From a virus: 64,000 nt of DNA. A model generated the notes under the pieces. The model had not been told where the DNA came from, made no database searches, and worked only from the letters and a program-made list of their open reading frames with translations. Positions 49,383-63,837 of the stretch are shown here, piece by piece. Made by a program: the position numbers and the translations under genes. The stretch lies in the IMG/VR virus record IMGVR_UViG_3300042197_004116, positions 1-64,000 of that record; one strand, 5' to 3'. Numbering within the stretch: position 1 is the first letter of the stretch; each line of letters opens with the position of its first letter.

Positions 49383-50702
49383 ATGATTGGTATTAAGAAA
49401 ACCGATAAAGAAATACAAGAATCTATTTTAGATAGAGCTATAGTATACTTAAAATACAGAGAAACTGATAGTTTTCTTTACTGTTCATTCTTTACTAGAA
49501 ACTTAGAAGTAATTAAGAAAGTATTTCCTGACCTTAATATATCATTTTCACAATATAAAAACGACAAAATAGATGCTGTTGATTTGAGAACTGGAGATCT
49601 AAGAACTTTAGAGACCAAAGAACTCTCTTTTGGTTATTTTCCAGAATTTCCTTTTGAACTATCCCCTGTATTTCTTTTCAATCCAAAATATACTGATAAA
49701 TTGTCTGCAAAAGATGTTATGTCTTTTCAAAAAAATACTATTACTCAATTAAAGAAATATAAAAATATAGCTTTAAAAATTAAAGATAGTAAAGAAAGAG
49801 AAGATTTAAATAAAATTATCTCACCTAAAGCATCTTTTCTTAAAACCATCTTACCAGGTTGTAGACTACTTGATGTAGCTCCATTAGATGCTTTTAAACA
49901 AGATAAAGTTTTAGTAAAGAAAGCATTTAAAAAATACCATGATGAACTTTTAAAGCATTATGATTATGTTATAGATGAAATTAATGCAGAAAAAAATGTC
50001 CTGTACAAAAAAATTAAAAGAGGGTGTAAATTTAGTAAAGATTCTCTTAATGAGGTGTTAGAGTTAGAGAAAAAAATTAATAAGGAGCGTATAAGCAGTG
50101 GTAAGTTAAAATTTACCTGTATATACGAAATGCTTAGTTACTGGCCTGAATCCTTAATTCCTGCTCCAGACTATATTATTACTGACCCTAGTGAAGAATG
50201 TAAAAAAATAATTGCTACAGTAAAATTAAGTGTACCTAGAGATGTATTAGTAGACTACTATAAAAATTTATGCACTGTCATTAGTGATTGGAGTACATAT
50301 GCTTTTACTTCTGAAAATAACCCGGAAGTATTTAAAAAAATTGTTGGTATAAAAGAAGAGGATGAATTCATACACTTTATAAGCATACCTACTTATAATA
50401 TATTACCTACAAGCTGTGATTTAAAGATTTTTCCAGGTAAGACTATTAAAACAAACGCTAATTTCATTCACTGCTATACATTTAAAAAAGACGAAGAGAA
50501 GGGCGATTATTATCTATTTTCTGATAATAATACTTCTATGACTAACCCAGATGCTATTAGATTAAAGAAAATAGATGATACCCATATTGAACTTATATTC
50601 AATCTTGATAATCAAGATACATTTAAAAGTAAGGGAACTAAACTTGAACCAATTACTAATACGCTTGAAATTTTAGATAATTTTATAAAAATAGCTGATT
50701 AA
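49383..50702 (+). CDS. hypothetical protein at the island border
   Basis: A 439-residue protein I do not recognise. The sequence is rich in Lys, Glu, Asp, Ile and Phe with mixed helix and strand. The N-terminal part (TDKEIQESILDRAIVYLKYR, FYCSF-like strands) and the central Lys-rich coiled region (HYDYVIDEINAEKNVLYKKI) are followed by a beta-rich C-terminal domain (EDEFIHFISIPTYNILPTSC, NANFIHCYTFKKDEE). No catalytic or metal-binding motif is evident. It is a single plus-strand gene between the fibre genes and the minus-strand glycosyltransferase. Its last 20 bases are antisense to that gene. Confidence 0.5.
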   Translation: MIGIKKTDKEIQESILDRAIVYLKYRETDSFLYCSFFTRNLEVIKKVFPDLNISFSQYKNDKIDAVDLRTGDLRTLETKELSFGYFPEFPFELSPVFLFNPKYTDKLSAKDVMSFQKNTITQLKKYKNIALKIKDSKEREDLNKIISPKASFLKTILPGCRLLDVAPLDAFKQDKVLVKKAFKKYHDELLKHYDYVIDEINAEKNVLYKKIKRGCKFSKDSLNEVLELEKKINKERISSGKLKFTCIYEMLSYWPESLIPAPDYIITDPSEECKKIIATVKLSVPRDVLVDYYKNLCTVISDWSTYAFTSENNPEVFKKIVGIKEEDEFIHFISIPTYNILPTSCDLKIFPGKTIKTNANFIHCYTFKKDEEKGDYYLFSDNNTSMTNPDAIRLKKIDDTHIELIFNLDNQDTFKSKGTKLEPITNTLEILDNFIKIAD

Positions 50703-51639
50703 ATCTTTTAACTATATCAGAAAAATTGTTTTCTTCTTTTCTAGTTTCACAATTTCTAAGAACACCAATAAAATAATCCCTATCTGTATAAATCCTGTAT
50801 AAAGACATTATAAACTCTTCTATATTATTTGCAGGCAGATAATCAAATTCACTCTTTTTATTAAGTATTAAGTTTTTGTCTTCGTTTAAGATTATTGGAA
50901 CACCAGATTTAAATGAAGAGAACAATCTGTTACAATGCTTAAAACCGGCTTGAGGTTGATCATAATTTCTAGAAAAAAAGAAGACATCTTCTTTACCTTG
51001 ATTGTGATTATATTTACTTTCTATGCTAAATTTAGATTCATCTATATGTTTTAAAAAAAGCTTTTTATTAATTATTTTTTTTGCAATATTAAATTTTTCA
51101 TTTGTAGTTGCTTTACAAAAGCTTAATAGCCACGGTGCTATATTTAACTCTAATGCGTTACAAAAAAACCTTCTAGGAGGAAAAACAGGATTACATTTCT
51201 TAAGACTTAAAGGCAAAGGCTCAGGAAAATAATTTATCTTTAAATTATACGTATAAAATCCGCCCAACCATGGAGTTGACTCCATAATTTCACCAGGCAA
51301 AGGCTTCTTTGCAATATCAAAACAAACAGACTTATCTGCAGATAAATACATATCACAATTAAAAATAGGTGGCTTATCACTTAAAATTTGTACTTTTTTA
51401 TAACTACCTAAGAAGTCTATTTTGTGTCTATTGTCAAAATGAAAAATTACTGTATCACTATCCTCTATATTAACAGGGAGTTTGGAAACTAGGCTTATAT
51501 TTTGTATGCCATTATTTTTAAGTATCCAATAAAGGTAAGACGAATGTACATCTTTTCCCTTAAAAGTTGACATGTCGTTATACAAGTCTGGAGAAAGAGC
51601 ATAGTTTTTTAAAGGCTGATTAGTTAAAAAATAAATCAT
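50683..51639 (-). CDS. glycosyltransferase (GT-B type, putative)
   Basis: I take the ATG at 51639 (MIYFLTNQPL), giving 318 residues and an ATGA overlap with the upstream methyltransferase; a longer frame starts at 51663. The C-terminal half has the GT-B donor-binding pattern: EDVFFFSRNYDQPQAGFKHC, then NRLFSSFKSGVPIILNED (a Ser-x-x-x-Gly-x-Pro turn typical of the nucleotide-sugar site). It ends with PANNIEEFIMSLYRIYTDRD and a terminal helix. The N-terminal half is less conserved. Glycosyltransferases of this kind add sugars to lipopolysaccharide, capsule or proteins. The 3' end is antisense to the 49383 gene. Neighbours include methyltransferases and oxygenases. Confidence 0.6.
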   Translation of the reverse strand: MIYFLTNQPLKNYALSPDLYNDMSTFKGKDVHSSYLYWILKNNGIQNISLVSKLPVNIEDSDTVIFHFDNRHKIDFLGSYKKVQILSDKPPIFNCDMYLSADKSVCFDIAKKPLPGEIMESTPWLGGFYTYNLKINYFPEPLPLSLKKCNPVFPPRRFFCNALELNIAPWLLSFCKATTNEKFNIAKKIINKKLFLKHIDESKFSIESKYNHNQGKEDVFFFSRNYDQPQAGFKHCNRLFSSFKSGVPIILNEDKNLILNKKSEFDYLPANNIEEFIMSLYRIYTDRDYFIGVLRNCETRKEENNFSDIVKRFNQLFL

Positions 51640-52451
51640 TTTTGAAGTAAAAATTCTGACCAAACAACAGGAAGCTCAAAATTCTCTTGACCTGAGTGAG
51701 ACTTCCCATAATCAGTCATTATGTTGCTATCCTTATAATAGTTCTCACATCTTTCAAAATCAACATTTTGTCTTATTTTTTTATAGAAATGTTTTCTGTA
51801 ATTTATAAGGTTAGTTTTAGAATAAACTAAATTAAATTTTTTTCTAAATTTATTTTTTAATAGAGCATACGTTATAGGTGCAAAATAAAATAAACTATAC
51901 CACTTTAAATAGTTATCATTAATTTGTTTCTTATATTTTGATTCACAATTTAAATTTAAATCAAGTATGTAACATAAACCTCCAGGTTTTAAGATACGAT
52001 ATATTTCTTTTATTGTTTTTTCTTTATGAATAGAATGAGAAAAAGATTCAATAAAATATATTATATCAAAAAAGTTATTTTTGAAGTTCGTTTTATTGAA
52101 GTTTTGTAGAGTAATTTTTGCTCTATTAGAAACATTATATTTTTTTATATTTTTATCTGCTATATTTTTTTGAACATTGCTTAAAGTTACACCATGTATA
52201 AACAAATCTTTGTTCTTTTTTAGGAAAGCAAGAGATAGACTGAAATCACCACAACCAGCATCTAATATAGTAACAGCATCTTTGACAAAGATCTTTTTAT
52301 ACAGAATATCATCATGCTGTTTTAAAAAAGGTGAAAATCTAAATGACTCTACTCTTCTATAAGTGTCTATCCACGAAGAGGTAGATGTGTTATAATAATC
52401 TCTTATTTTCTCGTAATGTAATTTTTTTTCTTTAATTAATGATGTACCCAT
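51636..52451 (-). CDS. SAM-dependent methyltransferase
   Basis: A 271-residue class I methyltransferase. Motif I is ILDAGCGDFSLSLAF (DAGCGD ~64-69), with an acidic loop further on and a post-motif IYRILKPGGLCYILDLNL. The ESFSHSIHKEK segment (~residues 135-145) resembles the loop of small-molecule C- or O-methyltransferases of the UbiE/sterol type. The downstream plus-strand gene at 55959 has a matching ESFCHSYDKK segment, so the two are paralogues of one subfamily. The substrate is unknown; sugars, lipids or small molecules are possible. It overlaps the next gene by 20 bases and the glycosyltransferase by 4. Confidence 0.85.
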   Translation of the reverse strand: MGTSLIKEKKLHYEKIRDYYNTSTSSWIDTYRRVESFRFSPFLKQHDDILYKKIFVKDAVTILDAGCGDFSLSLAFLKKNKDLFIHGVTLSNVQKNIADKNIKKYNVSNRAKITLQNFNKTNFKNNFFDIIYFIESFSHSIHKEKTIKEIYRILKPGGLCYILDLNLNCESKYKKQINDNYLKWYSLFYFAPITYALLKNKFRKKFNLVYSKTNLINYRKHFYKKIRQNVDFERCENYYKDSNIMTDYGKSHSGQENFELPVVWSEFLLQK

Positions 52452-52881
52452 ATCTATTATGAGGAGGTTCAGGTGAATCTTTTTTTACAAAAACAATATG
52501 TACAGGGTCATCATCTGTAATTTCATCTAAAGAGCTGCCTTCGTAAGAATTAAAATTAGAACTATTAATTAAATGAGTTGTTTCTGAATAAACTTTTTTT
52601 ACAATATTAGCCATATAAAACCCGCTTGTACCTGTGGGTGTTAATTCTAACGCTGTTGCACAATTATCAATTATTGAAACCAGGCGATTTTCAACTACAA
52701 ACGCTCTTAATGCTTTTTTTTGCTGCGGGGTAAAATTTAAAACTGTATTAGTGCCTATATATTCTTTTCCGTCATATCTTAAAGATAGCTTATTTCTAAT
52801 AGGCTCGTCATTCAATAAAAAATGTTTATGACTTACATACAAGTCGTTCTTTTCTAGAAAATCATCAGTAAATAAAAGCAT
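52432..52881 (-). CDS. hypothetical protein
   Basis: A 149-residue protein of unknown function. The N-terminal part is charged and strand-rich (KHFLLNDEPIRNKLSLRYDG, YIGTNTVLNFTPQQKKAL). A Cys lies in NRLVSIIDNCATALELTPTG. The C-terminal part is acidic and ends in DSPEPPHNRYGYIIN. No signal or membrane segment is seen. It is the first gene of a three-gene minus-strand run with a methyltransferase and a glycosyltransferase. It starts 5 bases after a TAAGTA variant of the start-proximal motif. Confidence 0.5.
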   Translation of the reverse strand: MLLFTDDFLEKNDLYVSHKHFLLNDEPIRNKLSLRYDGKEYIGTNTVLNFTPQQKKALRAFVVENRLVSIIDNCATALELTPTGTSGFYMANIVKKVYSETTHLINSSNFNSYEGSSLDEITDDDPVHIVFVKKDSPEPPHNRYGYIIN

Positions 52882-52886
52882 ATATA

Positions 52887-52892
52887 TACTTA
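52887..52892 (-). promoter_or_regulatory. TAAGTA variant of the start-proximal motif
   Basis: Minus-strand TAAGTA, 5 bases before the ATG at 52881, in a 47-base divergent gap. Confidence 0.35.
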
Positions 52893-52928
52893 CATATAGA
52901 TTTTTAAATTCAATTTATTAAATTTTTA

Positions 52929-53612
52929 GTGTCAAGTATTTTAAGTGCTTTTTTAAAATCTGAACCCGATTTAGACTGGTTTATTTTTCAGAGTTGTCTG
53001 CCTTGGATTAGGCTTAATATCAAAATACCATTTGATAAAATGTACGAAGAAGCTAAGGCATTACTTTCTAACTTCATAGAATATCGGGAAACCAATAGTA
53101 AAGGGTGGAAATCAATCTGCATTCACGGTATATCTAGCTCTCATATATACGATTTTACATACTATGATGAGTATAAAGACATAGATCAAAATGCTGTACC
53201 ATATCGATGGACTGAGATTTCTAAAAAATGTCCAGTAACAACTAAGTTTTTAAAAAATAATTTTTTTAACGCCAAGTTTTTTAGAGTTAGATATATGGCA
53301 TTAGAACCAGGCGGGTATATTTTGCCGCATACAGATATGCCTAAGAAAATACTTGCCCCTATAAATATATCACTAAACAATCCAGATAATTGTGTTTTTA
53401 AAATGAAAAATTACGGCATAGTACCTTTTAAGGCAGGCGACGCATTTATACTTGACACTAGTAATGAACATGTAGTTTTTAATGATAGTAATGAAACAAG
53501 AATTCATATGATTGTTCATATTAACTATCCTATTTTAACTAAAATTAATCAAAAAAAATGGGCAAAATTATTATTCAATTCATGGAGAATTACGAATCAG
53601 CATAAAAGCTAA
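52929..53612 (+). CDS. aspartyl/asparaginyl beta-hydroxylase-like 2-oxoglutarate oxygenase
   Basis: A 227-residue protein with a GTG start. The core carries the iron-binding pattern ILPHTDMPKKI (His ~134, Asp ~136), the strand LAPINISLNNPDNCVFKM, and KAGDAFILDTSNEHVVFNDS (distal His ~181), followed by Arg ~191 in ETRIHMIVHINY. This order and the HTD/H/R residues fit the cupin-like aspartyl/asparaginyl hydroxylase family, which hydroxylates Asp, Asn or free amino acids using Fe(II) and 2-oxoglutarate. Most members use two His and no acid, so the Asp after HT may or may not be a ligand. It is alone on the plus strand between two minus-strand runs and overlaps the next gene's 3' end by 23 bases. 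Confidence 0.7.
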   Translation: MSSILSAFLKSEPDLDWFIFQSCLPWIRLNIKIPFDKMYEEAKALLSNFIEYRETNSKGWKSICIHGISSSHIYDFTYYDEYKDIDQNAVPYRWTEISKKCPVTTKFLKNNFFNAKFFRVRYMALEPGGYILPHTDMPKKILAPINISLNNPDNCVFKMKNYGIVPFKAGDAFILDTSNEHVVFNDSNETRIHMIVHINYPILTKINQKKWAKLLFNSWRITNQHKS

Positions 53613-54144
53613 TACTAAAACTTATTTTATCTTTACTTGAAAAATTATAAACAGAATGCATTTTATTTAGAGGAAAAATTACATAATCACCTTTATTTTT
53701 AATTTCTTTATATTCATTATTTGATTCATAAAGACAGGCTCTATCCAGATCAAACAATAATAAATGAAAAATAACAAAACCATTCTTTTTGTGTAAATGT
53801 CTAGGAAAGTGACAATGCTTGTTGAGTTTACAAAACTGCGCAGAATTTATAGAAATATTTTTATTTTTAATTTCGTTTATAAGTGAAATAGTATTTTTAA
53901 AGTATTTAATTGAGTTATTTTCTACCTCTTTATTTACACCGCAGTAAATAGGCATAGATTTCCATTCTATCTTGCTTGAGCCTTTTGAACTAAAAACTGC
54001 TTCACGGTTTTTATTTTCTACATAAAAATATTTTTCTAACATTTTAAAATTATCTACATCTGTATATTCACTTATAATACTATCAATATTATTTTTAAAT
54101 AAGTTTAAAAATTTAAAATAATTTATCTCATAAAAATTTTTCAT
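53590..54144 (-). CDS. aspartyl-hydroxylase-like cupin protein
   Basis: A 184-residue protein and paralogue of its upstream neighbour. Both share an iron-site segment: FCKLNKHCHFPRHLHKKNGF here (His ~116 and ~118), FCLKSNQSIPYHKHSTKTAI there. The distal site is GDYVIFPLNKMHSVYNFSSK (His ~163). The usual final Arg that binds 2-oxoglutarate is Lys here (SKDKISFSISF), so activity is uncertain. The shorter N-terminus suggests a minimal double-stranded beta-helix. Coupled to the upstream gene by an ATGA overlap. The 3' end is antisense to the 52929 gene. Confidence 0.6.
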   Translation of the reverse strand: MKNFYEINYFKFLNLFKNNIDSIISEYTDVDNFKMLEKYFYVENKNREAVFSSKGSSKIEWKSMPIYCGVNKEVENNSIKYFKNTISLINEIKNKNISINSAQFCKLNKHCHFPRHLHKKNGFVIFHLLLFDLDRACLYESNNEYKEIKNKGDYVIFPLNKMHSVYNFSSKDKISFSISFYADS

Positions 54145-54749
54145 ACATTTACTTCTACTCCAAAAGTAATTCTATCAGTAATAGATTTATTTTCAGCATA
54201 ATGGTATAAAAACGGATTAAAGATAACATAGTCTTTTACGTCTTTCATACCTTTTTTTTCGTAGTAGGAACAATAATCTTCAAAAGTATTGGGATCACCA
54301 TTATTACTTTCATCTAAGTATGTAAATGCCTTGCCATCAAACAAAGTAAACATATTAATATGTATAATAGCAGTTTTTGTACTATGTTTATGATAAGGAA
54401 TACTCTGATTTGATTTTAAACAAAAAAACCCAGAAAAATTTAAATTTTTTATTTTTTTTAATATATTATTAGTTTTAACAAACTCATTCTTAAAACAAAA
54501 TTTATCTTTGTACAAAGGTATTACAATCCAATTATTAGCATTTCCACCTTTCTTATAATAATCTTCATTATTTTTTTGCTGCTTAATCCACTCTACTGTT
54601 TTTTTGTGAGGTCTTATAAAATTATTATTCTTAGTAATAAAAGAATTGTTTTGTATAAAATTATTATATTCACATATTATTGTATCAAAACTATCTAAGA
54701 GAATTTTAAACTGAGGAAAGTCATCTAGTGCTTTAAACAAACGATTCAT
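54141..54749 (-). CDS. aspartyl-hydroxylase-like cupin protein (paralogue)
   Basis: A 202-residue protein of the same type as the two neighbouring hydroxylase-like genes. Iron-site residues appear as SIPYHKHSTKTAIIHINMF (His ~120 and ~122) and VIFNPFLYHYAENKSITDR (distal His ~183 and Arg ~193), so the co-substrate Arg is kept. The N-terminal half is variable and Lys/Asn-rich. It overlaps the upstream gene by 17 bases and the downstream paralogue by four. Three such genes lie next to each other in two orientations. Substrates are unknown. Confidence 0.6.
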   Translation of the reverse strand: MNRLFKALDDFPQFKILLDSFDTIICEYNNFIQNNSFITKNNNFIRPHKKTVEWIKQQKNNEDYYKKGGNANNWIVIPLYKDKFCFKNEFVKTNNILKKIKNLNFSGFFCLKSNQSIPYHKHSTKTAIIHINMFTLFDGKAFTYLDESNNGDPNTFEDYCSYYEKKGMKDVKDYVIFNPFLYHYAENKSITDRITFGVEVNV

Positions 54750-55152
54750 TTTTGCTTGCCTCCTTTAGGCTTTTTTTCCAAAAAATTATAGCTTGTTTTA
54801 AGTTTTTTATTGTATTAATTCTAATAACACGTAATTTAACAAATTCTCCTTTTTTATATGCAGATTTTTCATCATCATGTTCTTTTGTAATAGTTGCGAC
54901 AGTATTAAACTCATTTTTTGTAATATCTTTAATTAAAGTTTTTGATTTAAAAACATCCTTGTCTTTGCATCTGCAGATTGTACTAACATAAATATATTTT
55001 TTATTTCTTTCCCACACATAATCAAAAACCTCCTTCTTTAAGCTTAGTTTATATGCTTTATTTTTAGTAAGAAATACAAAAAACAACTTATTACGTAAAT
55101 GCTCTCTACGTATTTTTTTTGATGTATTTTTAATATAAATCTTTAAAAACAT
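54733..55152 (-). CDS. hypothetical basic protein
   Basis: I take the ATG at 55152 (MFLKIYIKN), giving 139 residues; a longer frame opens at 55197 but would overlap the oxygenase gene by 68 bases instead of 23. The protein is basic and strand-rich (NKLFFVFLTKNKAYKLSLKK, KYIYVSTICRCKDKD), with two Cys in the CRC motif, and a Lys/Ala-rich helical C-terminus. I see no catalytic motif. It is part of a four-gene minus-strand run with the PhyH-type oxygenase and two cupin paralogues. Confidence 0.5.
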   Translation of the reverse strand: MFLKIYIKNTSKKIRREHLRNKLFFVFLTKNKAYKLSLKKEVFDYVWERNKKYIYVSTICRCKDKDVFKSKTLIKDITKNEFNTVATITKEHDDEKSAYKKGEFVKLRVIRINTIKNLKQAIIFWKKSLKEASKNESFV

Positions 55153-55897
55153 AATTACTTTGCTTAGCAAAAGGTTTGCCTTTAAACAAAAAATCATCTC
55201 CTGTATAATACAATATATTTTTCTTATTCATTTTATAAATACTCAATTCATTTTTATTCGTTCTTTTATAAAGAAGAAAAGGGGCTTCTTTTTCAATCAA
55301 AGCAACCCCTACAGCATATCTTTCTTTATTTGATGTTTCTGCTGTATCTGAACCATGAATCATCCTACTATGATACATAACTGCATCGCCTTTTTCTAAA
55401 TCATTTAGGTAAACTTTATTATCAAATTTCTCCTCAAATTTAAAAGGAAAAGGAATATTAACACCTCTTATATAATTTTTATATTTTAAATACGAACTTT
55501 CAACAACATAAAGCGAGTTATGATTTTTTTCTATTGTATGAAGAGGGAACCATAATGTATATGTATTATATCTCAATTCATCAGTAAAAGCAGGGTCTTG
55601 GTGCTGTATACTCATACTATTAGGACCTGGTATTTTTTTTATATAACTTATCAAAACTACTTTATAATTAGGTAACTTATCTTCAATATGCTTTCTTAAA
55701 ATACTATCAAGCTCTTTATAAATTGTTTTTTTCCATTCTATATTTCTCACATATGTAGAGCTCAAAAAATTTGAATTTTTAAAAAAAGGAGAGTCATTAA
55801 AGAGCTCTCTTTTAAGAGTTCTATCTACAAGCGATTTTACTGATGTAATTTGATCAATATTAAAAAAATTTCTTAGTACTGTATAGCCTTTATCCAC
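55130..55897 (-). CDS. phytanoyl-CoA-dioxygenase-like (PhyH) 2-oxoglutarate oxygenase
   Basis: A 255-residue protein with a GTG start preceded by TAAATA. The 2-oxoglutarate/Fe(II) signature is complete: His ~99 and Asp ~101 in SIQHQDPAF, the distal His ~181 in SRMIHGSD, and Arg ~193 in NKERYAVGVAL. The segment NTYTLWFPLHTIEKNHNSLY is the family's W/F-rich strand; the usual Gly-x-Leu/PGSH turn is degenerate. A second PhyH protein at 61541 shares the layout, including an IRGV motif after the core strand. PhyH enzymes hydroxylate lipids, small molecules or peptides. First gene of its minus-strand run. Confidence 0.8.
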   Translation of the reverse strand: MDKGYTVLRNFFNIDQITSVKSLVDRTLKRELFNDSPFFKNSNFLSSTYVRNIEWKKTIYKELDSILRKHIEDKLPNYKVVLISYIKKIPGPNSMSIQHQDPAFTDELRYNTYTLWFPLHTIEKNHNSLYVVESSYLKYKNYIRGVNIPFPFKFEEKFDNKVYLNDLEKGDAVMYHSRMIHGSDTAETSNKERYAVGVALIEKEAPFLLYKRTNKNELSIYKMNKKNILYYTGDDFLFKGKPFAKQSNYVFKDLY

Positions 55898-55903
55898 ATT
55901 AAA

Positions 55904-55909
55904 TATTTA
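55904..55909 (-). promoter_or_regulatory. TAAATA motif, minus strand
   Basis: Six bases before the GTG at 55897. An out-of-frame ATG lies two bases upstream of the GTG. Confidence 0.4.
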
Positions 55910-55947
55910 GAATATTTTACTTATTTGCAACTATACAGAAAAACTAT

Positions 55948-55953
55948 TAAATA
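55948..55953 (+). promoter_or_regulatory. TAAATA motif
   Basis: Five bases before the ATG at 55959, in the 61-base divergent gap shared with the PhyH gene. Confidence 0.4.
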
Positions 55954-55958
55954 AGAAT

Positions 55959-56741
55959 ATGTTTCTGGAAAAACATTTTTATACTCTTAATAATTTTTAT
56001 AGAAAATTTACTTTTTGGTATTATAAACAAAATAAGTCTACCAACTTCAGAATAGAAAGTTTCATGCCTTTTAGAACATACAGTAAAATTAATAAATTTA
56101 TAATACAAGCTTCTAAACTTACCAACAATGAAAACTATACTTTTGCAGATTTTGGTTGCGGTTTAGGCATGCCAACAAAAGAAATTTCAAAAAAATTCAG
56201 TAAAAATAAATTTATTTTTGTTAATATTAATAAAGAGCAAATCAACTTTATTAAAAAAACTAAAAATACCTATCTTTTAAATGAAGACTATCATAATACT
56301 TCTATAAGTTCTAATAGTGTAGATACAATACTGTTTTACGAATCGTTTTGCCATTCATACGATAAAAAATTAGCATTAAATGAATGTTATAGAGTTTTAA
56401 AAAGGAATGGTAGGCTCATAATTATAGATTATCTTCATCACGATTCTGCAACTAAAGAACAAATAAACTCATACGTAAAAACAATGTCTATGTACCTAAT
56501 TACTAAAAAACAAATGGAAACTTTAATAAATAAAAAGAAATTTAAAAAAATTATTTTTGATACAAATATTAATAATTATTTTAAATTAAAAAATAGTAAA
56601 TATGACGACAACTATATATACTACAAAAATAAAAAAAACAATTCTTTGGTTCTTTCGGATTTTGGTGAAATGATTAAAGACGTTGCACTGACTCAAGCCT
56701 TTATAGCTTTACCGTCAATTATAGTATTGGAAAAAATTTGA
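55959..56741 (+). CDS. SAM-dependent methyltransferase (paralogue of the 51636 gene)
   Basis: A 260-residue class I methyltransferase. Motif I is TFADFGCGLGMPTKE (ADFGCGLG ~63-70), a motif II-like NSVDTILFYESFCHSYDKKL, then CYRVLKRNGRLIIIDYLHH. The ESFCHSYDKK loop matches ESFSHSIHKE in the minus-strand methyltransferase, indicating one subfamily. A small N-terminal helical cap (MFLEKHFYTLNNFYRKFTFW) probably covers the substrate. The 3' end overlaps the convergent gene by 49 bases, one of the longest antisense overlaps in the window. Substrate unknown. Confidence 0.85.
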   Translation: MFLEKHFYTLNNFYRKFTFWYYKQNKSTNFRIESFMPFRTYSKINKFIIQASKLTNNENYTFADFGCGLGMPTKEISKKFSKNKFIFVNINKEQINFIKKTKNTYLLNEDYHNTSISSNSVDTILFYESFCHSYDKKLALNECYRVLKRNGRLIIIDYLHHDSATKEQINSYVKTMSMYLITKKQMETLINKKKFKKIIFDTNINNYFKLKNSKYDDNYIYYKNKKNNSLVLSDFGEMIKDVALTQAFIALPSIIVLEKI

Positions 56742-57385
56742 TCTATTTCATTTTTGGTAAGCTTCCATGTTTTTGTATTTGAATAATAATAGCTAGTGGT
56801 TTTGAGATTTTTATCTTTTCCAAAGGAAATTAAATTAAAATTTTTAAATTTAAAAGGAGATAAATTTTTTAAATAATTAAAACATGTAATAACAGCTATC
56901 TTTTCATAGCTTACAGTTCTATTGTTTCTTATTCCTCTACCTCTGCATATCTCAATTCCCGATACTGGCAAATGTATGTTGTATTCCTTTTTTAGTTTCT
57001 TTATATAGTTTTTATTCTTTGTGTACTTATATGTTCTTTTGTTATCTTCTTCAAACGCAATTAACTTGTAATCTTCATAGCTCAAACCCTTCTTTATGTT
57101 TTTTACATTATAGTAGTATGCCAAAAAACATTTTTTGTTTATTATTTTTATAGCAATACCGGGTAGCCTCGTACCTATATCAGTCTTTTTTTTAAAAAAA
57201 GGTATATAATTAATATTCTTGTTAAGAAATTTTTTTACTATACTTAAAAAAATATCTTCTTTAAAAGTGAAATAGAGTTTTAAAGATGTTATTTTATTAT
57301 CACAAATATTTAAACCAAAAAAACTATGACATGAAAGAGGATTTATTGTATAAGCTATTTTTTTAGCCTTTTTTATAGACATCAT
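56693..57385 (-). CDS. ABBA-prenyltransferase-like protein A (putative)
   Basis: A 230-residue protein with no known family by eye. It shows five repeats of a strand-turn-strand unit whose second strand is Lys/Tyr-rich: LNICDNKITSLKLYFTF, GIAIKIINKKCFLAYYYNV, YKLIAFEEDNKRTYKYTK, a fourth with EKIAVITCFNYL, and NLISFGKDKNLKTTSYYYSN. Helical stretches lie between. The gene at 58467 has the same five-unit layout. Five alpha-beta-beta-alpha units with Lys and Tyr on the strands is the architecture of ABBA (aromatic or cyanobactin-type) prenyltransferases, so I propose that fold; it is inference from pattern, and the protein is shorter than known enzymes (~300). It overlaps the radical SAM gene by ATGA. 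Confidence 0.35.
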   Translation of the reverse strand: MMSIKKAKKIAYTINPLSCHSFFGLNICDNKITSLKLYFTFKEDIFLSIVKKFLNKNINYIPFFKKKTDIGTRLPGIAIKIINKKCFLAYYYNVKNIKKGLSYEDYKLIAFEEDNKRTYKYTKNKNYIKKLKKEYNIHLPVSGIEICRGRGIRNNRTVSYEKIAVITCFNYLKNLSPFKFKNFNLISFGKDKNLKTTSYYYSNTKTWKLTKNEIDQIFSNTIIDGKAIKA

Positions 57386-58458
57386 AATATTTCTTTACCA
57401 CTCATTTTGTTCTTATAAAAAATAATTTCATTTATTAATTCTCTATATTTTTTAATATTAGTTTTCTGAGTTTCTGTTGGATTTAAAAGTAGAAACTTTT
57501 TTATTGACATTGCAGTGTAAATTTCATCTATTTCTTCTTTTTTAAGAGCACTTAAAGCCATACTTTCAGGAAACATTAGTTTATGAAAATAAACATTTGC
57601 GTTAATACTGTTAGCAAGGGTTATAATTTTATGAAGGTCTCGAATATTGCTTCCCATCACAACTGTGCTTATTGTTAGTCTTTTTTTCTTAGCTTGTAGA
57701 ATATCGCTTATCTTTTTAAGATTCTCGCAAACCCTATCAAAATTAGCATTAACTCTTATTTTTTCAAATAATTCTTTTGTACCTGCATCAATACTAACAC
57801 CTACATCTATATCTAATTCTTTTAAATAACTTTCAATTCTACTATTATATACCGTACCATTTGTTTGCAGATAAAAATTAATTTTTAATTTATTTTCTTT
57901 ACAATAGTCTAAAATCTTAAAATATCCTTTTATTAAAAACGGCTCTCCACCATAAAAATCTACTCTTTTAACATAAGGTAGTATGCTAAACAATTCTTCA
58001 TAAAACTTATCATCGTAGGGTGAAATATATTTAGGAAGCTTTTCTCTATTTTTTCTAATTGATGAAGAATGTTTACCATTACACATTACACATTCCAGAT
58101 TACAAATATTATCAAGCTCTAAATCCAACCTAATAGGATATTTTAGGGTTTTTGTAGTTCCTTTATAATCATAAAAAGGAATTTTAAGAGTTTCAAAATT
58201 ACCACACTTTAAATTATGGCTACAATGGCCGCAACCAACATTAAACTTCATTTGCCTCATTTCCTCTCTCATTTTCTTTAATGGCTCACCATTCCATATT
58301 TCCATTATAGTCTGCTCAGGGTATGACCCTAATTTATAAAATCTATTAGCACAACACACAAAAAACTCTCCTTTTTGACCCATATAAAGGCTATTAAATG
58401 GAGCGCTACAAAGCATACCCTTCTTTTGTCTGTTTTTAAGGAAATCTACTTCCGTCAC
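57382..58458 (-). CDS. radical SAM enzyme with N-terminal SPASM-like domain
   Basis: A 358-residue protein with a GTG start. The N-terminal part is a SPASM/twitch-like cluster domain: Cys ~17 in LCSAPFNSLYMGQKGEFFVCC (Cys ~35-36), a loop GSYPEQTIMEIWNGEPLKKM, and Cys ~76, ~79, ~85 in GCGHCSHNLKC. The radical SAM core follows, with CNLECVMC (Cys ~119, ~123, ~126; the CxxxCxxC motif), YGGEP (~169-173) and a partial TIM barrel (NFYLQTNGT, VGVSIDAGT). Such enzymes cleave S-adenosylmethionine to start radical chemistry on peptides, sugars or lipids. It sits between two related proteins (56693 and 58467) and overlaps the former by ATGA. Role unknown. Confidence 0.88.
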   Translation of the reverse strand: MTEVDFLKNRQKKGMLCSAPFNSLYMGQKGEFFVCCANRFYKLGSYPEQTIMEIWNGEPLKKMREEMRQMKFNVGCGHCSHNLKCGNFETLKIPFYDYKGTTKTLKYPIRLDLELDNICNLECVMCNGKHSSSIRKNREKLPKYISPYDDKFYEELFSILPYVKRVDFYGGEPFLIKGYFKILDYCKENKLKINFYLQTNGTVYNSRIESYLKELDIDVGVSIDAGTKELFEKIRVNANFDRVCENLKKISDILQAKKKRLTISTVVMGSNIRDLHKIITLANSINANVYFHKLMFPESMALSALKKEEIDEIYTAMSIKKFLLLNPTETQKTNIKKYRELINEIIFYKNKMSGKEIL

Positions 58459-58463
58459 AGATG

Positions 58464-58469
58464 TATTTA
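58464..58469 (-). promoter_or_regulatory. TAAATA motif, minus strand, overlapping a stop codon
   Basis: Begins at the TAA stop of the upstream gene (58467-58469) and lies 5 bases before the GTG of the radical SAM gene. Confidence 0.4.
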
Positions 58470-59279
58470 CTTTAATAAAGAGTATGAATCTACAACACCC
58501 TTTTTTAGAAGGCTATTAACATTAGAAGGATAGAAATAAAGAGACACTATATTGTCACTGGTATATAATCCCATATTTCTTACATAAAATCCTTTTTTGG
58601 TAAAAAAGCTAATCTTCTCTATTAAACTAAATTTTTTTAAATACTTTATTATTTTTTTCTTGTCTGTTCCTATGAAAATAACTTTCAATGGAATGCCATC
58701 TACTTCTGTATATTCAATTTTTTCAGACTTCAAAGGTATATCAGTTTCAAACACCTTACTAAAATATTTTTTCGCTGGTTCTGATGTTAAAAATCTATAA
58801 CATTTATGCTTTGTTTTATTTTTAGTGGATTCATAACAAACCCCTATTTGATCAGATTTACTTAAGAACTCATCTTGTATATTTTTAACCATGTGTTTAC
58901 GAATAAAAATGCTCTTATAATATCGTCTTGTAGCAATAAAATGAAACTGATAAGTAAATTTTTTTCTTTCCAAATCATACTTTAACGCAAAGGTAACACC
59001 TCTTTTGCACTCATTTTTTTCAAAATTTATAAGCTTGTAATTTTTCATCAGAAGATGGGGAGATGGGAAAAACTTTTTAATTTCTTCTCTTGTCAGCTTT
59101 CTAACCGTATTAAAGTAGAACTTAATAGTTTTTATAATTCCGTTTTTCCTTATATTAATAGAAAAAATATTACCTAAAGGATACTGGCTACCGCAATTTA
59201 GAGCCTTATAATTTTTGTAATATTCAGCAAATTCTTTACTTTTTATAAAAGTTGAAAAGCAGTTTTCTAGAGGTATCAT
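58467..59279 (-). CDS. ABBA-prenyltransferase-like protein B (putative)
   Basis: A 270-residue protein, paralogue of the 56693 product by layout: SINIRKNGIIKTIKFYFNT, GVTFALKYDLERKKFTYQFH, GVCYESTKNKTKHKCYRFL, then IPLKVIFIGTDKKKIIKYL and NMGLYTSDNIVSLYFYPSN, five strand pairs each ending in a Lys/Tyr-rich strand, mostly with a helix after them. The first two units align with the paralogue. Prenyl-diphosphate binding in ABBA enzymes uses Lys, Arg and Tyr on such strands, which is the basis for the suggestion. No metal-binding DDxxD motif is visible, as expected for ABBA members. It is the first gene of the minus-strand run with the radical SAM enzyme. Only 8 bases separate it from the divergent GT8 gene. 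Confidence 0.35.
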   Translation of the reverse strand: MIPLENCFSTFIKSKEFAEYYKNYKALNCGSQYPLGNIFSINIRKNGIIKTIKFYFNTVRKLTREEIKKFFPSPHLLMKNYKLINFEKNECKRGVTFALKYDLERKKFTYQFHFIATRRYYKSIFIRKHMVKNIQDEFLSKSDQIGVCYESTKNKTKHKCYRFLTSEPAKKYFSKVFETDIPLKSEKIEYTEVDGIPLKVIFIGTDKKKIIKYLKKFSLIEKISFFTKKGFYVRNMGLYTSDNIVSLYFYPSNVNSLLKKGVVDSYSLLK

Positions 59280-59287
59280 ATTGATAG

Positions 59288-60085
59288 ATGAATAATTGTA
59301 TAGCTTATATTGTAAATAGCAAATACTTGCCTTTATTTAAATTAAGTATCTTTTCATTAATAAGATCTAACCCTAGACTTAATATAGACATTAACTTATT
59401 TATATCTGATAACATAAAAAGTGAGATAAAAAGCTTTCTTAAAAAACTTAAAATTAAAGCTAAGATTCACCAAATAAACAATAAAAAATATGAAAAGTAT
59501 TCTTTTATTTCCAGAAGAAATTGGGATCTGTCACCTGCAACGAGATTAGAATTGTTTACTTTATACAAATATTCAAAAGTACTTTATCTAGATTGTGATA
59601 CATTAGTTTTAAAAGACATAAAAGAGTTGTTTGAATTAAAAGACAAAAACATTTATGCATGTAGGCTTCATCCTATCACTAACAGCTCTTATTTTGGCTC
59701 TCAGTTCAACGGGTTTAACGCAGGGGTAATATTATTTACTAAACCGTTTTTGTCAAAAAAATATAGTTCTAAAGTAAGCAAACTTCTAGCCAATTCAAAA
59801 TTTAGCGGTAACCAAGAAGCATTAAATCTTGTATTCAATGATAATACAGTTCTAATAGACCAAAAATACAACCTCACACTAGACTTAGCCACTTTAAGCA
59901 ACTTAAAGGAAGCTGTTATTATTCATTATATTGGTGAAAAGTATTTTACAATTGATAGCAATATAATACAAATACAAAATTTTAGTGACTATATAAAGAA
60001 AACAACTCACCCTTTAGTATTGACCAAGTTTAAAACAATAGTTAATGACATTAGCTTAGAGCTTAATAAATTTTTAAATGTGTAG
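59288..60085 (+). CDS. glycosyltransferase family 8
   Basis: A 265-residue GT8-type transferase, acting on nucleotide sugars with retention of configuration. The metal-binding DxD is in VLYLDCDTLVLKDI (Asp ~102 and ~104), followed by FNGFNAGVILF (~residues 140-150), GNQEALNLVF and the C-terminal HYIGEKYF that holds the last metal-binding His. The N-terminus (CIAYIVNSKYLPLFKLSIFS) is the usual first Rossmann strand. GT8 enzymes include galactosyltransferases for lipopolysaccharide and glycogenin. It overlaps the asparagine-synthetase homologue by 8 bases, so the two are probably expressed together. Confidence 0.88.
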   Translation: MNNCIAYIVNSKYLPLFKLSIFSLIRSNPRLNIDINLFISDNIKSEIKSFLKKLKIKAKIHQINNKKYEKYSFISRRNWDLSPATRLELFTLYKYSKVLYLDCDTLVLKDIKELFELKDKNIYACRLHPITNSSYFGSQFNGFNAGVILFTKPFLSKKYSSKVSKLLANSKFSGNQEALNLVFNDNTVLIDQKYNLTLDLATLSNLKEAVIIHYIGEKYFTIDSNIIQIQNFSDYIKKTTHPLVLTKFKTIVNDISLELNKFLNV

Positions 60086-61364
60086 TTTTTATTTTACCAA
60101 TAAATCATGTAGTAAAAAACTCCTCAAGAGTCAAAACTATTTTAGCTCTAAAAGAGGGCCAGATAATACAACTATTATAACTGACAATAATTTATCCATT
60201 GTTCATAATTTACTATCTATAACAGGAAGTCCCACAAAGCAACCATTAATAGAAAATAATTTGTATGTTATGTTTAACGGTGAGATTTACAATTATAATA
60301 AAGGCAGATTTAAATCTGATATCTATTTTATTTTACACCTTTATAAAAAGTATGGTGAACAGTTTGTTGATTATTTAGATGGTGAATATGCAATAGTAAT
60401 CTACGATAAAAATAAAAACTCTGTAATTTTCTGTACGGATATTTTTATGACTAAGCCGTTATTTTATTCTATTGAAAATGGAATTATTTCAATCAGTTCT
60501 TACAAAAGCTCCTTTGACAATGTAAATGAAATAATTCAAGCTCTACCCAGTACTTTATATAAATTTAATATTACTACTAAATCTCTAAAAGAAAAAACAT
60601 ATTTTAAATTTAATACTAAACAATTCAAGAATAACTACAGTGATTTTGAATCAGCATTAAAAAAATCTATTTTAAAAAGAACTAAAACTAATAAAAAACT
60701 ATTTATAGGATTAAGCAGTGGTTATGATAGCGGAGTACTAGCATGTATTTTAAATAAGCTTAAAATAAATTACAATGCATATACTATTTTAAGCAAAGAA
60801 AACATTGAAATTTTACACCAAAGAGAAAAATTAGTCAACAACTATACGCTTATAAAGCCTGATTTTAAGAAGCTAACATACGCTAAATTAAAAATTATAC
60901 AAAACTGTGAGCCAAGTAAAAACGCGTCTTTTGATTATGCTTCTGACCACGCTTCATCAGGTTTATATTTGATAGCAGAGAAAGGATTAAAAAATAATTG
61001 TAAAGTGTTTCTATCTGGTACTGGAGCAGATGAAATTTTTAGTGACTATGGATTTAATGGAACAAAAATATTTTCAAACAGTAACTTTGGCGGGCTTTTT
61101 CCTAAAGATCTATCAACAATTTTTCCCTGGAAGAATTTTTATAACGGTTGTTTAAGAAACTATATAGATAAAGAAGAATATGTCTTGGGTGGTTTAGGTA
61201 TAGAAGCAAGATACCCGTTTCTCGATAAAGATGTAGTTCAAGAATTTCTAAATCTCTCTCCTAAATTAAAAAACAACAATTACAAAGCCCCTCTTTACCA
61301 CATTCTTAAAAAATATAATTTTCCCTTTGAAGAAAATATTAAACGCGGATTTAGCTTTATTTGA
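60078..61364 (+). CDS. asnB: asparagine-synthetase homologue (AsnB-like)
   Basis: A 428-residue protein, shorter than bacterial AsnB (~550). The glutaminase domain is intact: Cys2 (MCSFYF), RGPDN (~26-30), NGEIYN (~67-72), and D(x)nKPLFY near residue ~126-130. The synthetase domain keeps the ATP-pyrophosphatase motif LSSGYDSGV (~212-220) and SGTGADEIFSDYG (~313-325), then a shortened C-terminus ending in the conserved PFEENIKRGFSFI. Family members transfer glutamine-derived ammonia to a carboxylate; in glycan and envelope clusters they amidate uronic acids or amino acids. A free asparagine role is equally possible. Convergent with the small gene that follows (8-base overlap). Confidence 0.85.
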   Translation: MCSFYFTNKSCSKKLLKSQNYFSSKRGPDNTTIITDNNLSIVHNLLSITGSPTKQPLIENNLYVMFNGEIYNYNKGRFKSDIYFILHLYKKYGEQFVDYLDGEYAIVIYDKNKNSVIFCTDIFMTKPLFYSIENGIISISSYKSSFDNVNEIIQALPSTLYKFNITTKSLKEKTYFKFNTKQFKNNYSDFESALKKSILKRTKTNKKLFIGLSSGYDSGVLACILNKLKINYNAYTILSKENIEILHQREKLVNNYTLIKPDFKKLTYAKLKIIQNCEPSKNASFDYASDHASSGLYLIAEKGLKNNCKVFLSGTGADEIFSDYGFNGTKIFSNSNFGGLFPKDLSTIFPWKNFYNGCLRNYIDKEEYVLGGLGIEARYPFLDKDVVQEFLNLSPKLKNNNYKAPLYHILKKYNFPFEENIKRGFSFI

Positions 61365-61551
61365 ACCCGTGCCTTATTCTATCTATAAAATAAGCCTTTA
61401 ACTCACTTACATTACAAGACTTACAGCTGTTCATTTTTTGTAAAAAATTCAGTTTTTCTAAGTATTCATTTCTCAAACTGCTACAATTTTTTATTTCCTC
61501 TGGACAAGGAGAGCTTAAATCAAAGAAAATTTCCAATAGATTAGAAGTCAT
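61357..61551 (-). CDS. small four-cysteine protein (paralogue of 63344)
   Basis: A 64-residue protein containing SSPCPEEIKNC (C-x6-C), then NSCKSC (C-x2-C) and a C-terminal SELKAYFIDRI. The gene at 63344 has KPCPNEIKDC, RVCKPC and NSLKAKYINIF at the same spacing, so the two are clearly related. Four cysteines in a C-x6-C/C-x2-C layout suggest a small metal-binding (zinc) domain. It is downstream of a PhyH gene (11-base overlap) and antisense by 8 bases to the AsnB-like gene. Function unknown. I considered a precursor peptide but the paralogue away from the enzymes argues against it. Confidence 0.6.
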   Translation of the reverse strand: MTSNLLEIFFDLSSPCPEEIKNCSSLRNEYLEKLNFLQKMNSCKSCNVSELKAYFIDRIRHGFK

Positions 61552-62374
61552 GCTTTAATAGAGCTAAATACTTGTTATACCCTCTTAATAGTTTTTCAGA
61601 AACAATGCTCGATTCACCATTAAATTTATGCTTAACCTCAGGATTATAATTTAAAATAACTTCTGTATCTACATTGTATTTTTTAACCTTATCGTCCTCC
61701 TTAACATATATTACAAAATTTTTATTTTTAGGAATTATGCCCAGTCCTATTGATATACGTGTATTGTGTGTCTCAGGAGTTGAATAAGAGCCATGTATTA
61801 CTCTTGGGTTCATTACCAAGACATCACCTGCTTTTAGGGGACAAACAAACTTAGCATTTTTAAGCAGTTTGTCTTTAAAATTATTAAGCCCAAGAGTAAC
61901 CCCTACTCCTCTTATGAAATTTTTAAAAATTTTATGGGTCCCTGGTATAATATATAAAGGTCCAGATTTCTCATCAATATCATCCAATGCAAACCACACA
62001 GTATAAGATGAAACTGAAGAAGTTTCCTCTATTAATGATATGTCTTGATGGACCTTACATTCATTCTCTCCACCAGGGTACTTTATAATATAGTTGCCAA
62101 TTACAATTTTATAATTTTTAAAAACTTTATCTATTTTTGGTTGAAGCAAACCATATAAAAAACTATAAACCGATTTTTTATACTCAATATTTTTACTCAT
62201 CGCAGTATTAACGTGGTTTATGTTTTTGTCTCTATATATGTTAAATCCAGCAGTATCATTAAAATCATTATAAAACTGTTTTAGTGAAGATAAATCATCT
62301 TTACTCAACAGTTGATTTAAAACAACATAGCCTTTATCTTTTAAATGCTTATTAAGATTAATATCCTTGATCAT
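61541..62374 (-). CDS. phytanoyl-CoA-dioxygenase-like (PhyH) oxygenase, second copy
   Basis: A 277-residue protein with the complete facial triad: CKVHQDISL (His ~109, Asp ~111), RVIHGSYS (His ~194) and the 2-oxoglutarate-binding Arg ~206 in HNTRISIGLG. The typical GPLYIIPGTHK turn (PGT/SH) and YTVWFALDDI strand are intact, so this is the better-conserved of the two PhyH proteins in the window. IRGVG follows the core, as in the copy at 55130. Its start overlaps by 8 bases an opposite-strand frame beginning at a TTG. Substrate unknown. Confidence 0.85.
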   Translation of the reverse strand: MIKDINLNKHLKDKGYVVLNQLLSKDDLSSLKQFYNDFNDTAGFNIYRDKNINHVNTAMSKNIEYKKSVYSFLYGLLQPKIDKVFKNYKIVIGNYIIKYPGGENECKVHQDISLIEETSSVSSYTVWFALDDIDEKSGPLYIIPGTHKIFKNFIRGVGVTLGLNNFKDKLLKNAKFVCPLKAGDVLVMNPRVIHGSYSTPETHNTRISIGLGIIPKNKNFVIYVKEDDKVKKYNVDTEVILNYNPEVKHKFNGESSIVSEKLLRGYNKYLALLKHDF

Positions 62375-63119
62375 ATTGAGTCTTATTTTAATTAATTATA
62401 ACTTGACCGCCATTTCTCAAACTAGTTTTTTTCCTAAAAAAGACATTTTAAAATTTGTAAAATACTACAAATATGTAATTTTGTTTAATTCAGAAAGAAT
62501 ATTTTTGAAAGATAAAATATCTTTTGACCATTTTATAGGGCCTTGTTCAGGCTTTAAACCGTTCTTGGTTTCAGAACTTTATAATACTAACCCTAAATGT
62601 AAAATAACTTTTTTTGATTTTAATCAGTCACAAATTTATTTTTATAAAGCTTTGCTTAAGTGGAATGGGAAGAACTTTCAAAAATTTGTAGATGGTTTTT
62701 TTACAAAAAACAAAGAAATACTAAACAAGGTTATTGTAAACAATTTACCTCGTGAATATTTAGACAGAAAAATGAAAGAGATATTATCTAATTTTAAAGA
62801 TGAAAAATCCTTTATTGAGTCATGGAATAAATTTAGAAAAAAAGATATTAATTTTGTTTTTATAAACGCTATTACTGATTATAAGAACATTATACCCCTT
62901 ATAGATAAAAACTCAGTTTCTTATCTTTGGTTAAGCAATATATACAATTTTGAAATATCTAACCACCGTTATGGTAAAGAAAAGTGCCTATCTGCACTTA
63001 AAAAATTATTAACAAGGCTTGTAAATAAAAATATATATATAGATTTAGAAACTGAAAACAAAAGCGGGGTTTTTAGTCCAAAATGTGCTCTAAAGCAAAT
63101 TTTTAATCTTGATAAATAA
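62367..63119 (+). CDS. putative Rossmann-fold protein, start uncertain
   Basis: The frame opens at a TTG at 62367 (250 residues); other starts in frame are TTG at 62376 and at 62403 (MTAISQTSFFP), and I cannot decide among them. No ATG fits. Visible features: HFIGPCSGFKPFLVSELYN followed by CKITFFDFNQSQIYFYKALL. A Gly-rich loop, then a strand ending in Asp and a helix, is a Rossmann-like pattern close to methyltransferase motifs I and II. It is preceded by a hydrophobic stretch ILSLILINYNL that may be non-coding. The C-terminal half (KDINFVFINAITDYKNIIPL) resembles a substrate domain. It overlaps the divergent PhyH start by 8 bases if the first TTG is used. Confidence 0.5.
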   Translation: MIILSLILINYNLTAISQTSFFPKKDILKFVKYYKYVILFNSERIFLKDKISFDHFIGPCSGFKPFLVSELYNTNPKCKITFFDFNQSQIYFYKALLKWNGKNFQKFVDGFFTKNKEILNKVIVNNLPREYLDRKMKEILSNFKDEKSFIESWNKFRKKDINFVFINAITDYKNIIPLIDKNSVSYLWLSNIYNFEISNHRYGKEKCLSALKKLLTRLVNKNIYIDLETENKSGVFSPKCALKQIFNLDK

Positions 63120-63142
63120 AAACAATAGGTTAATATATTTTT

Positions 63143-63343
63143 GTGTATATAGAAAAGTTTACAGCTCATGTTAGAGATTTGACTTCTAAAAAGTCTTTTA
63201 AGATTGTTTTAGATGAAAATGACCCTCAAGAGGCACATAAAAAGATCTATAACAAACTTAACAATTATCAAGAAATTGTTAAACTCACTAATCATGATAA
63301 TGAAGTTGTTTATAATATTGACTCCGGTTTTATAAATAATTAA
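63143..63343 (+). CDS. small conserved-looking protein
   Basis: A 66-residue protein with a GTG start, followed without a gap by the next small gene (its TAA ends one base before the ATG at 63344). The sequence (FTAHVRDLTSKKSFKIVLDE, then PQEAHKKIYNKLNNYQEIV) shows a short strand, an acidic turn and an amphipathic helix, without Cys or catalytic residues. I do not recognise it. Confidence 0.45.
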   Translation: MYIEKFTAHVRDLTSKKSFKIVLDENDPQEAHKKIYNKLNNYQEIVKLTNHDNEVVYNIDSGFINN

Positions 63344-63523
63344 ATGATATCTGAATTTTTTGAATTAGAAAAACCTTGCCCAAACGAGATTAAAGACTGT
63401 GAACAGTGGAGAGAACAATACAAAAAGGATTTGGCAGAATTAAATCCAAGAGTTTGTAAACCATGTGCTTTAAACAGCTTAAAAGCAAAATATATAAATA
63501 TTTTTGCCTCTCAAGGTAAATGA
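63344..63523 (+). CDS. small four-cysteine protein (paralogue of 61357)
   Basis: A 59-residue gene starting at ATG 63344 and ending at TGA 63523. Residues: MISEFFELEKPCPNEIKDC, then REQYKKDLAELNPRVCKPC and ALNSLKAKYINIFASQGK. It matches the 61357 protein in Cys spacing and in the LKAxYI/F tail. The C-x6-C and C-x2-C pairs suggest a zinc-binding fold. It overlaps the following membrane-protein gene by four bases (ATGA), implying coupled translation. Confidence 0.65.
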   Translation: MISEFFELEKPCPNEIKDCEQWREQYKKDLAELNPRVCKPCALNSLKAKYINIFASQGK

Positions 63524-63837
63524 TAGATTTATTTTACTCTTATATAACTGCCCAGGCCTTTATATTATTCTGGTTTTATTCACCCCTTAAAACTTCCTTA
63601 TATAAACTATTAACAGGTAAATTTAGTCTTAACAATGAAGATTTTGATACATACCTACTTTGCAAAAGTACTCTTTTTAAAGTTTTTACTTGTACGTTTT
63701 GTTTAGGTTTTTGGACAAGTCTAATTACCAGTTTATATTTTAATTCAGGTTTTGAACCTATTATAGTAAGCTGGGCCTTTTCTATTACTTTCTTATATTT
63801 GTTTGAAAATTTTTTAAATTTCATAAAAAGGAGTTGA
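63520..63837 (+). CDS. small membrane protein (DUF1360-like)
   Basis: A 105-residue protein with hydrophobic segments at its N-terminus (YSYITAQAFILFWFY), middle (TCTFCLGFWTSLITSLYF) and C-terminus (IIVSWAFSITFLYLFENFL). The motif FTCTFCLGFW (C-x2-C before a Trp) is typical of small inner-membrane proteins of the DUF1360 type found in phages and bacteria. Function unknown. It overlaps the four-cysteine gene by four bases and ends 32 bases before the last gene. Confidence 0.6.
   Translation: MIDLFYSYITAQAFILFWFYSPLKTSLYKLLTGKFSLNNEDFDTYLLCKSTLFKVFTCTFCLGFWTSLITSLYFNSGFEPIIVSWAFSITFLYLFENFLNFIKRS

Follow-up and report, generated by a model that had tools for sequence, protein, structure and literature searches.

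A predicted PT-barrel protein in a tailoring gene block of a marine phage

The L, radical SAM and S genes

The DNA analysed here, referred to as the window, comprises bases 1-64000 of the 75,463-bp IMG/VR record IMGVR_UViG_3300042197_004116, from a marine virus of bacteria. Three of its genes, L, that of a radical S-adenosylmethionine (SAM) enzyme, and S, follow one another in this order on the minus strand. An 8-bp gap separates L from the radical SAM gene, which is joined to S by an ATGA overlap. This arrangement agrees with an earlier note on the same DNA, although the span given there, 57382-59279, takes in only the radical SAM gene and L and leaves out S.

The radical SAM enzyme has the N-terminal SPASM-like domain that had been described, with Pfam placing SPASM at residues 17-79 (E = 3.7e-10) ahead of Radical_SAM at 117-281 (E = 4.4e-14). 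It also passes NF033640 (N_Twi_rSAM, twitch domain-containing radical SAM), scoring 183.7 bits where the cut-off is 170. The CxxxCxxC motif consists of C119, C123 and C126. These cysteines and those of the N-terminal part (C17, C35, C36, C76, C79 and C85) are all invariant in a 70-71% identical homologue, which is encoded at 8001-9083 of L002, a record of a second phage discussed below. Among GTDB genomes just one relative was found, 25% identical and in an Omnitrophota bin.

Predicted folds and conserved strand residues

AlphaFold2 models of L and S were built from two-row alignments, each of the protein and its L002 homologue. In the model of L (predicted local distance difference test score, pLDDT, 75.6; predicted template modelling score, pTM, 0.78), ten strands are paired into five hairpins separated by helices, an arrangement that matches in outline the published definition of the PT-barrel as ten strands from five repeats (PMC3227686). 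When this model was compared with the PDB by Foldseek, ranks 1-18 were all chains of ABBA (PT-barrel) prenyltransferases, with probabilities of 0.91-1.00, and the next, unrelated match dropped to E = 0.17 and probability 0.07. The best match is the peptide enzyme PirF (6pgm; E = 1.2e-5, probability 1.00). Four kinds of enzyme are represented, namely cyanobactin (PirF, PagF, DciF and KgpF), indole (IptA, AuraA, CdpNPT and NotF), CloQ and NphB, and DMATS1 was matched as well. NphB and CloQ are among the enzymes with which a comparison had been proposed. By the terms of the earlier note, a fold lacking a ten-stranded barrel or a convincing hit in some unrelated family would have refuted its ABBA assignment, and for L neither outcome occurred; a weak Pfam match to EME1-MUS81 (E = 0.059) was dismissed as chance. 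Together, the model and its matches indicate that L very probably has a PT-barrel fold. At the sequence level, no relatives of L were found in Pfam, PHROGs, NCBIfam, the PDB or GenBank phages, and no homologues in GTDB genomes.

The same architecture had been assigned to S, whose model is too poor to carry it (pLDDT 52.9, pTM 0.58). This model shows nine strands in a repeated strand-strand-helix order. The first-ranked PDB match is the ABBA protein FamD1, at a non-significant E of 0.31 (probability 0.21); PagF, also ABBA, is among the best, again non-significant matches, and several lipocalins are further down. That S is a second, shorter PT-barrel is plausible and, on balance, somewhat probable. 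A weak match to the cobamide protein CbiR (E = 0.22) was dismissed as chance, and sequence searches gave no relatives of S in GenBank phages. L and S had also been described as related proteins, and homology was rejected at the sequence level: BLASTP and hhalign gave nothing, and aligning the two-sequence profiles did no better than shuffles (z 0.67). The best local match within this non-significant alignment is hairpin 1, and the pairs K36/Y38, K162/A164 and S198/Y200 in hairpins 1, 4 and 5 of S are reminiscent of L.

Structural comparison to viral models in BFVD returned two cyanophage proteins for L, one of 284 residues from Synechococcus phage ACG-2014e (E = 0.017, probability 0.96) and one of 325 residues from S-CAM3 (E = 0.30, probability 0.28). 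Judging from length and phage rather than an accession match, we infer that the former is Syn7803C2_39 (KJ019156, 47182-48036, 855 bp), a hypothetical protein of phrog_4851, for which no function is annotated. Relatives in this family occur in ACG-2014i/j, S-CAM1/3/4, S-H9-2 and AG-345-P14. From the predicted models, phrog_4851 appears to have a PT-barrel-like fold. Few basic residues are conserved in its hairpins, and its conserved residues do not suggest a donor site. A 526-residue viral protein, A0A0P0YP17, was also matched (E = 2.5e-4, probability 1.00) and could be a further viral PT-barrel.

The strands of L and S had been called Lys/Tyr-rich, a description that does not set them apart. 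Lys, Tyr, Arg and His make up 28.9% of strand residues and 28.3% of the remainder in L (29.2% and 27.8% in S), because the whole low-G+C block in which the genes lie (26%) codes for Lys/Tyr-rich proteins. On the second strands of L, both homologues keep unchanged pairs of residues at a spacing of two: K53/Y55, Q111/H113, K159/Y161, K199/I201 and S246/Y248, the last extended by Y250. The invariant set thus includes basic residues or His at K53, H113, K159 and K199, and tyrosines at Y55, Y161, Y248 and Y250. Polar alternating pairs are present in four of the five hairpins of L (P = 0.008 against random segment placement) and in three of the five of S (P = 0.13), but this test was devised after the pattern was seen, so that the P values are only indicative. 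We read the residue register of L strand by strand, by eye against the literature. In this reading, hairpins 1, 3 and 4 each carry a basic residue and hairpin 2 a His, while Tyr is present in hairpins 1, 3 and 5. In TleC, diphosphate is held by Arg119, Lys187, Arg248 and Arg378 together with the shield tyrosines Tyr252, Tyr317 and Tyr382 (PMC4786772).

The surrounding block and its conservation in a second phage

The window contains a T4-like tail and packaging region, with terminase, sheath, tube, clamp loader and baseplate wedge. Tail-fibre-type proteins extend to 48.8 kb (47025-48767), after which begins the block of mixed-strand genes (~49.4-63.8 kb), with a G+C content well below the 33% upstream. 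Within it, the neighbours of L and S that belong to recognisable families are mostly tailoring enzymes according to Pfam (Table 1), and Pfam scans gave no nucleotide-sugar synthesis set. An RCC1-repeat (beta-propeller) protein is encoded in the tail and structural region (38413-40068). Past the window, at record positions ~71240-71572 (L009:15241-15573), a 110-residue protein resembles, by eye, the S-adenosylmethionine decarboxylase proenzyme of cyanophages.

Table 1. Genes of the block in window coordinates; percentages are amino acid identities, and L002 is a record of the second phage. 2OG, 2-oxoglutarate; aa, amino acids.
Feature	Position	Strand	Basis
439-aa protein, edge of shared block	49383-50702	+	33% identical in L002
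326-aa protein	50683-51663	-	No Pfam match; 40% identical in L002
Class I SAM methyltransferase	51636-52451	-	Methyltransf_11 4.6e-14; 52% identical in L002
Asp/Asn beta-hydroxylase-family oxygenase	52929-53612	+	PF05118 6.2e-16; 68% identical in L002
Asp/Asn beta-hydroxylase-family oxygenase	53590-54144	-	PF05118 8.9e-9; 58% identical in L002
Asp/Asn beta-hydroxylase-like oxygenase	54141-54749	-	PF05118 0.0046, below cut-off; 31% to 53590 protein; 66% in L002
154-aa protein, no assigned function	54733-55197	-	39% identical in L002
Second PhyH-type oxygenase, paralogue of 61541-62374	55130-55897	-	Pfam PhyH 4.2e-7; 31% to other copy
Class I SAM methyltransferase	55959-56741	+	Methyltransf_11 6.3e-15; 40% identical in L002
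Protein S, 230 aa, possible second, shorter PT-barrel	56693-57385	-	AlphaFold2, non-significant fold matches, L002 homologue
Radical SAM enzyme, N-terminal SPASM/twitch, 358 aa, GTG start	57382-58458	-	Pfam, NF033640
Protein L, 270 aa, predicted PT-barrel (ABBA) protein	58467-59279	-	AlphaFold2 model and Foldseek
GT8-family glycosyltransferase	59288-60085	+	Pfam 1.2e-24; L002 homologue 40%
AsnB-like glutamine-dependent amidotransferase/synthetase, 428 aa	60078-61364	+	GATase_7 2.9e-17, Asn_synthase 2.4e-15; 48% identical in L002
Four-Cys 64-aa protein	61357-61551	-	40% to window 63344-63523; 40% to L002:5694-5918
PhyH-type 2OG-Fe(II) oxygenase	61541-62374	-	Pfam PhyH 7.3e-19; 55% identical in L002
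250-aa protein	62367-63119	+	No Pfam match; 30% identical in L002, there directly upstream of radical SAM gene
Four-Cys 59-aa protein, second paralogue	63344-63523	+	Sequence comparison

One other phage with the block was found in IMG/VR, and none further. It is represented by two records, L002 and L003, which are identical over the 17 kb compared. Nearly all genes from 49383 to 63837 have a counterpart in L002, at 30-71% identity, and about 17 genes are common to both phages in shuffled order. These include the AsnB-like, GT8, PhyH, radical SAM, S and L genes, two methyltransferases, three Asp/Asn-hydroxylase-like oxygenases and several unknowns. Two PhyH genes are present in the window and one was seen in L002, where the counterpart of a 149-residue protein encoded inside the block (52432-52881) was not found. 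The S homologue (L002:9080-9730, 37% identical) overlaps the radical SAM stop by 4 bp, as in the window, whereas the L homologue, 30% identical, lies ~4 kb from this pair on the opposite strand, within the shared block. Because of this layout, the unit kept together is the block, with radical SAM-S as its tightest pair, and not the three-gene cassette that the earlier note had envisaged.

The four-Cys proteins form a family with two spaced cysteine pairs (CPxEIxxC ... CxxC), two members being encoded in the window and one in L002 (5694-5918). No significant match to them was obtained in PHROGs or GenBank phages. From their sequences, they look like small folded (CxxC) proteins.

Proposed function and relation to known systems

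The window is best explained as carrying a cluster of tailoring genes immediately downstream of the phage's tail-fibre genes. We lean modestly towards a pathway whose isoprenyl transfer would be the work of L and, probably, of S as well. L would take up a host-derived short-chain prenyl diphosphate in its ten-stranded barrel and hold it by Lys, His and Tyr side chains that, in each hairpin, face inwards from the second strand (proposed contacts K53/Y55, Q111/H113, K159/Y161, K199 and S246/Y248/Y250). The barrel would shield the allylic cation from water as it forms. L would then pass the prenyl group to an acceptor on which the block's radical SAM enzyme, 2OG oxygenases, methyltransferases, amidotransferase and glycosyltransferase would act as well. 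S would probably also be isoprenyl-transferring, in the same tailoring pathway. Peptides, virion proteins and glycans are all candidate acceptors. A peptide or protein is favoured by fold scores like those of peptide enzymes, by the SPASM radical SAM enzyme and by the oxygenases of Asp/Asn-hydroxylase type; GT8 and AsnB speak for a glycan. Beside the enzymes, no convincing precursor of a ribosomally synthesized and post-translationally modified peptide (RiPP) was found; the only short conserved open reading frames noticed were the four-Cys paralogues. These are not favoured as precursors, since the spaced Cys and CxxC pattern is kept and one copy lies beside an unrelated conserved phage gene.

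Besides the fold matches of L and its closeness in size to the cyanobactin enzymes, several observations support this reading. The alternating second-strand residues of L are invariant despite just 30% identity between the homologues, and they are of the same kind as the barrel positions, positive residues with a tyrosine shield, that hold the diphosphate in TleC (PMC4786772). The translational overlap of radical SAM and S is retained in both phages, and the tailoring neighbours are co-inherited with L and S in the second phage. Other observations weigh against it. The TM-scores of L are moderate, 0.40-0.53 by query length, with root-mean-square deviations of 7-10 Å over long gapped alignments, and just one of the five AlphaFold2 models, from a two-sequence alignment, exceeds pLDDT 70, the other four being below 66. 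No ABBA profile matches L even at E = 10, in searches of this record with TIGR04445 and of both phage records with PF11468 and PF11991; known ABBA subfamilies often fail to match each other, with under 5% for PatF versus DMATS (PMC3668578). Isoprenoid (polyprenyl) synthase, PF00348, is absent from both phage records, and the donor, dimethylallyl or geranyl diphosphate, would therefore be a host metabolite. The hairpin-2 lysine, which is Lys187 in DMATS and TleC and Lys or Arg in active PatF relatives (PMC3668578), corresponds in our strand-by-strand reading to Gln111 in L, where a conserved Lys100 is found on the partner strand instead. PatF itself is a PT-barrel with changed donor-site residues and no detectable prenylase activity, and the loss of its Lys187 and Asp178 equivalents accompanies this loss (PMC3668578). 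On this reading, the donor site of L looks like that of an ABBA enzyme with a single substitution, and L is a candidate rather than a certified prenyltransferase. On balance, we consider it somewhat probable that L transfers a prenyl group.

The change at hairpin 2 speaks for a rival reading in which L and S are PT-barrels with another role, binding a different phosphate or diphosphate ligand or acting as a non-catalytic scaffold or substrate-binding protein for the oxygenases and the radical SAM enzyme. PatF offers a precedent (PMC3668578), and phrog_4851, with its few basic hairpin residues and its place beside oxygenases, suggests that such barrels spread in phages without obvious donor-site conservation. 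However, basic and Tyr residues at alternating strand positions are conserved between both L homologues, and we regard a non-prenylating role as rather unlikely. It is improbable that the fold match is an artefact of AlphaFold2 on a shallow alignment, with L and S being other five-hairpin alpha/beta proteins, for example lipocalin-like or another beta barrel. Although the alignment depth, the four low-scoring models of L and the lipocalins listed for S, which has no significant fold match, are consistent with this, the 18 top matches of L all belong to a single superfamily and are set off sharply from the match that follows. In addition, L is matched by two divergent cyanophage members of one family, whose BFVD models were built independently.

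A different question is what the block as a whole modifies. GT8 and AsnB-like genes are usual in surface-glycan clusters. The block adjoins the tail-fibre genes, and its lineage-specific gene order and low G+C content are like those of exchangeable host-interaction modules. Modification of a surface glycan (lipopolysaccharide, capsule or fibre sugar), with the barrels as minor decorators, in place of a peptide or small-molecule pathway, is possible but less likely than not; L could transfer prenyl groups in this case too. Against it, Pfam scans of the block gave no nucleotide-sugar synthesis set, and the combination of radical SAM/SPASM, Asp/Asn-hydroxylase-like and cyanobactin-like prenyltransferase folds speaks more for substrates that are peptides or proteins. 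The fullest form of the prenyl-transfer proposal is a complete phage pathway, in which two new PT-barrel prenyltransferases, the radical SAM enzyme and the 2OG oxygenases would make a peptide bearing an isoprenyl group or attach such groups to a virion (tail-fibre) protein, and phrog_4851 would be a second, wider phage PT-barrel family. Taken as a whole, this is unlikely.

The PT-barrel was reported as exclusive to prenyltransferases of secondary metabolism in bacteria and fungi (PMC3227686), and the cyanobactin peptide pathways were added later. No report of a phage PT-barrel was found in the literature searched. Members from phages, unrelated to the others in sequence, would broaden the superfamily, provide very small soluble prenyltransferases for testing and pose the question of why a tailed phage would prenylate anything. 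Since they are inherited together with a radical SAM enzyme and 2OG oxygenases, the pathway can be tested as a whole, and through the fold relatives in cyanophages a version of it is available in phages whose Synechococcus hosts can be cultured.

Among known enzymes, the cyanobactin F-family (PirF, PagF, KgpF and DciF; the TIGR04445 group) gives the best fold scores for L, with TM 0.53/0.51 for 9lwv. These enzymes are small like L (285-297 versus 270 residues), and their RiPP tailoring context is comparable in spirit to the phage block. L differs in having no profile match, in the Gln at the hairpin-2 donor-site Lys/Arg position and in being phage-encoded; no cyanobactin protease, cyclase or recognisable precursor was seen in the block. 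The aromatic prenyltransferases of the NphB/CloQ and DMATS/indole types share with the predicted model of L the five-hairpin, ten-strand PT-barrel; basic residues and Tyr lie inside it, as they may in L. They are bacterial and fungal enzymes of secondary metabolism with 300-410 residues, whereas L is shorter, phage-encoded and without a PF11468 or PF11991 match.

The closest GenBank-phage relatives of the radical SAM enzyme are N_Twi_rSAM (NF033640)-like proteins of Vibrio phages (for example D479 and F86), which align over its N-terminal and core parts at 26% identity. Their flanks differ, with nucleotide-metabolism genes and hypotheticals, and searches with S and L profiles gave no homologue of either in the D479 record. 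The phrog_4851 genes come closer in setting. In several Synechococcus phages they lie, like L, behind tail-fibre genes and within a run of 2OG-Fe(II) oxygenases, and in S-H9-2 the gene adjoins a phytanoyl-CoA dioxygenase. Unlike the window, the flanks examined have no annotated radical SAM gene, and hhalign gave no signal between phrog_4851 and S or L. Despite lacking sequence similarity to L or S, phrog_4851 is a striking parallel to the window in both location and neighbours.

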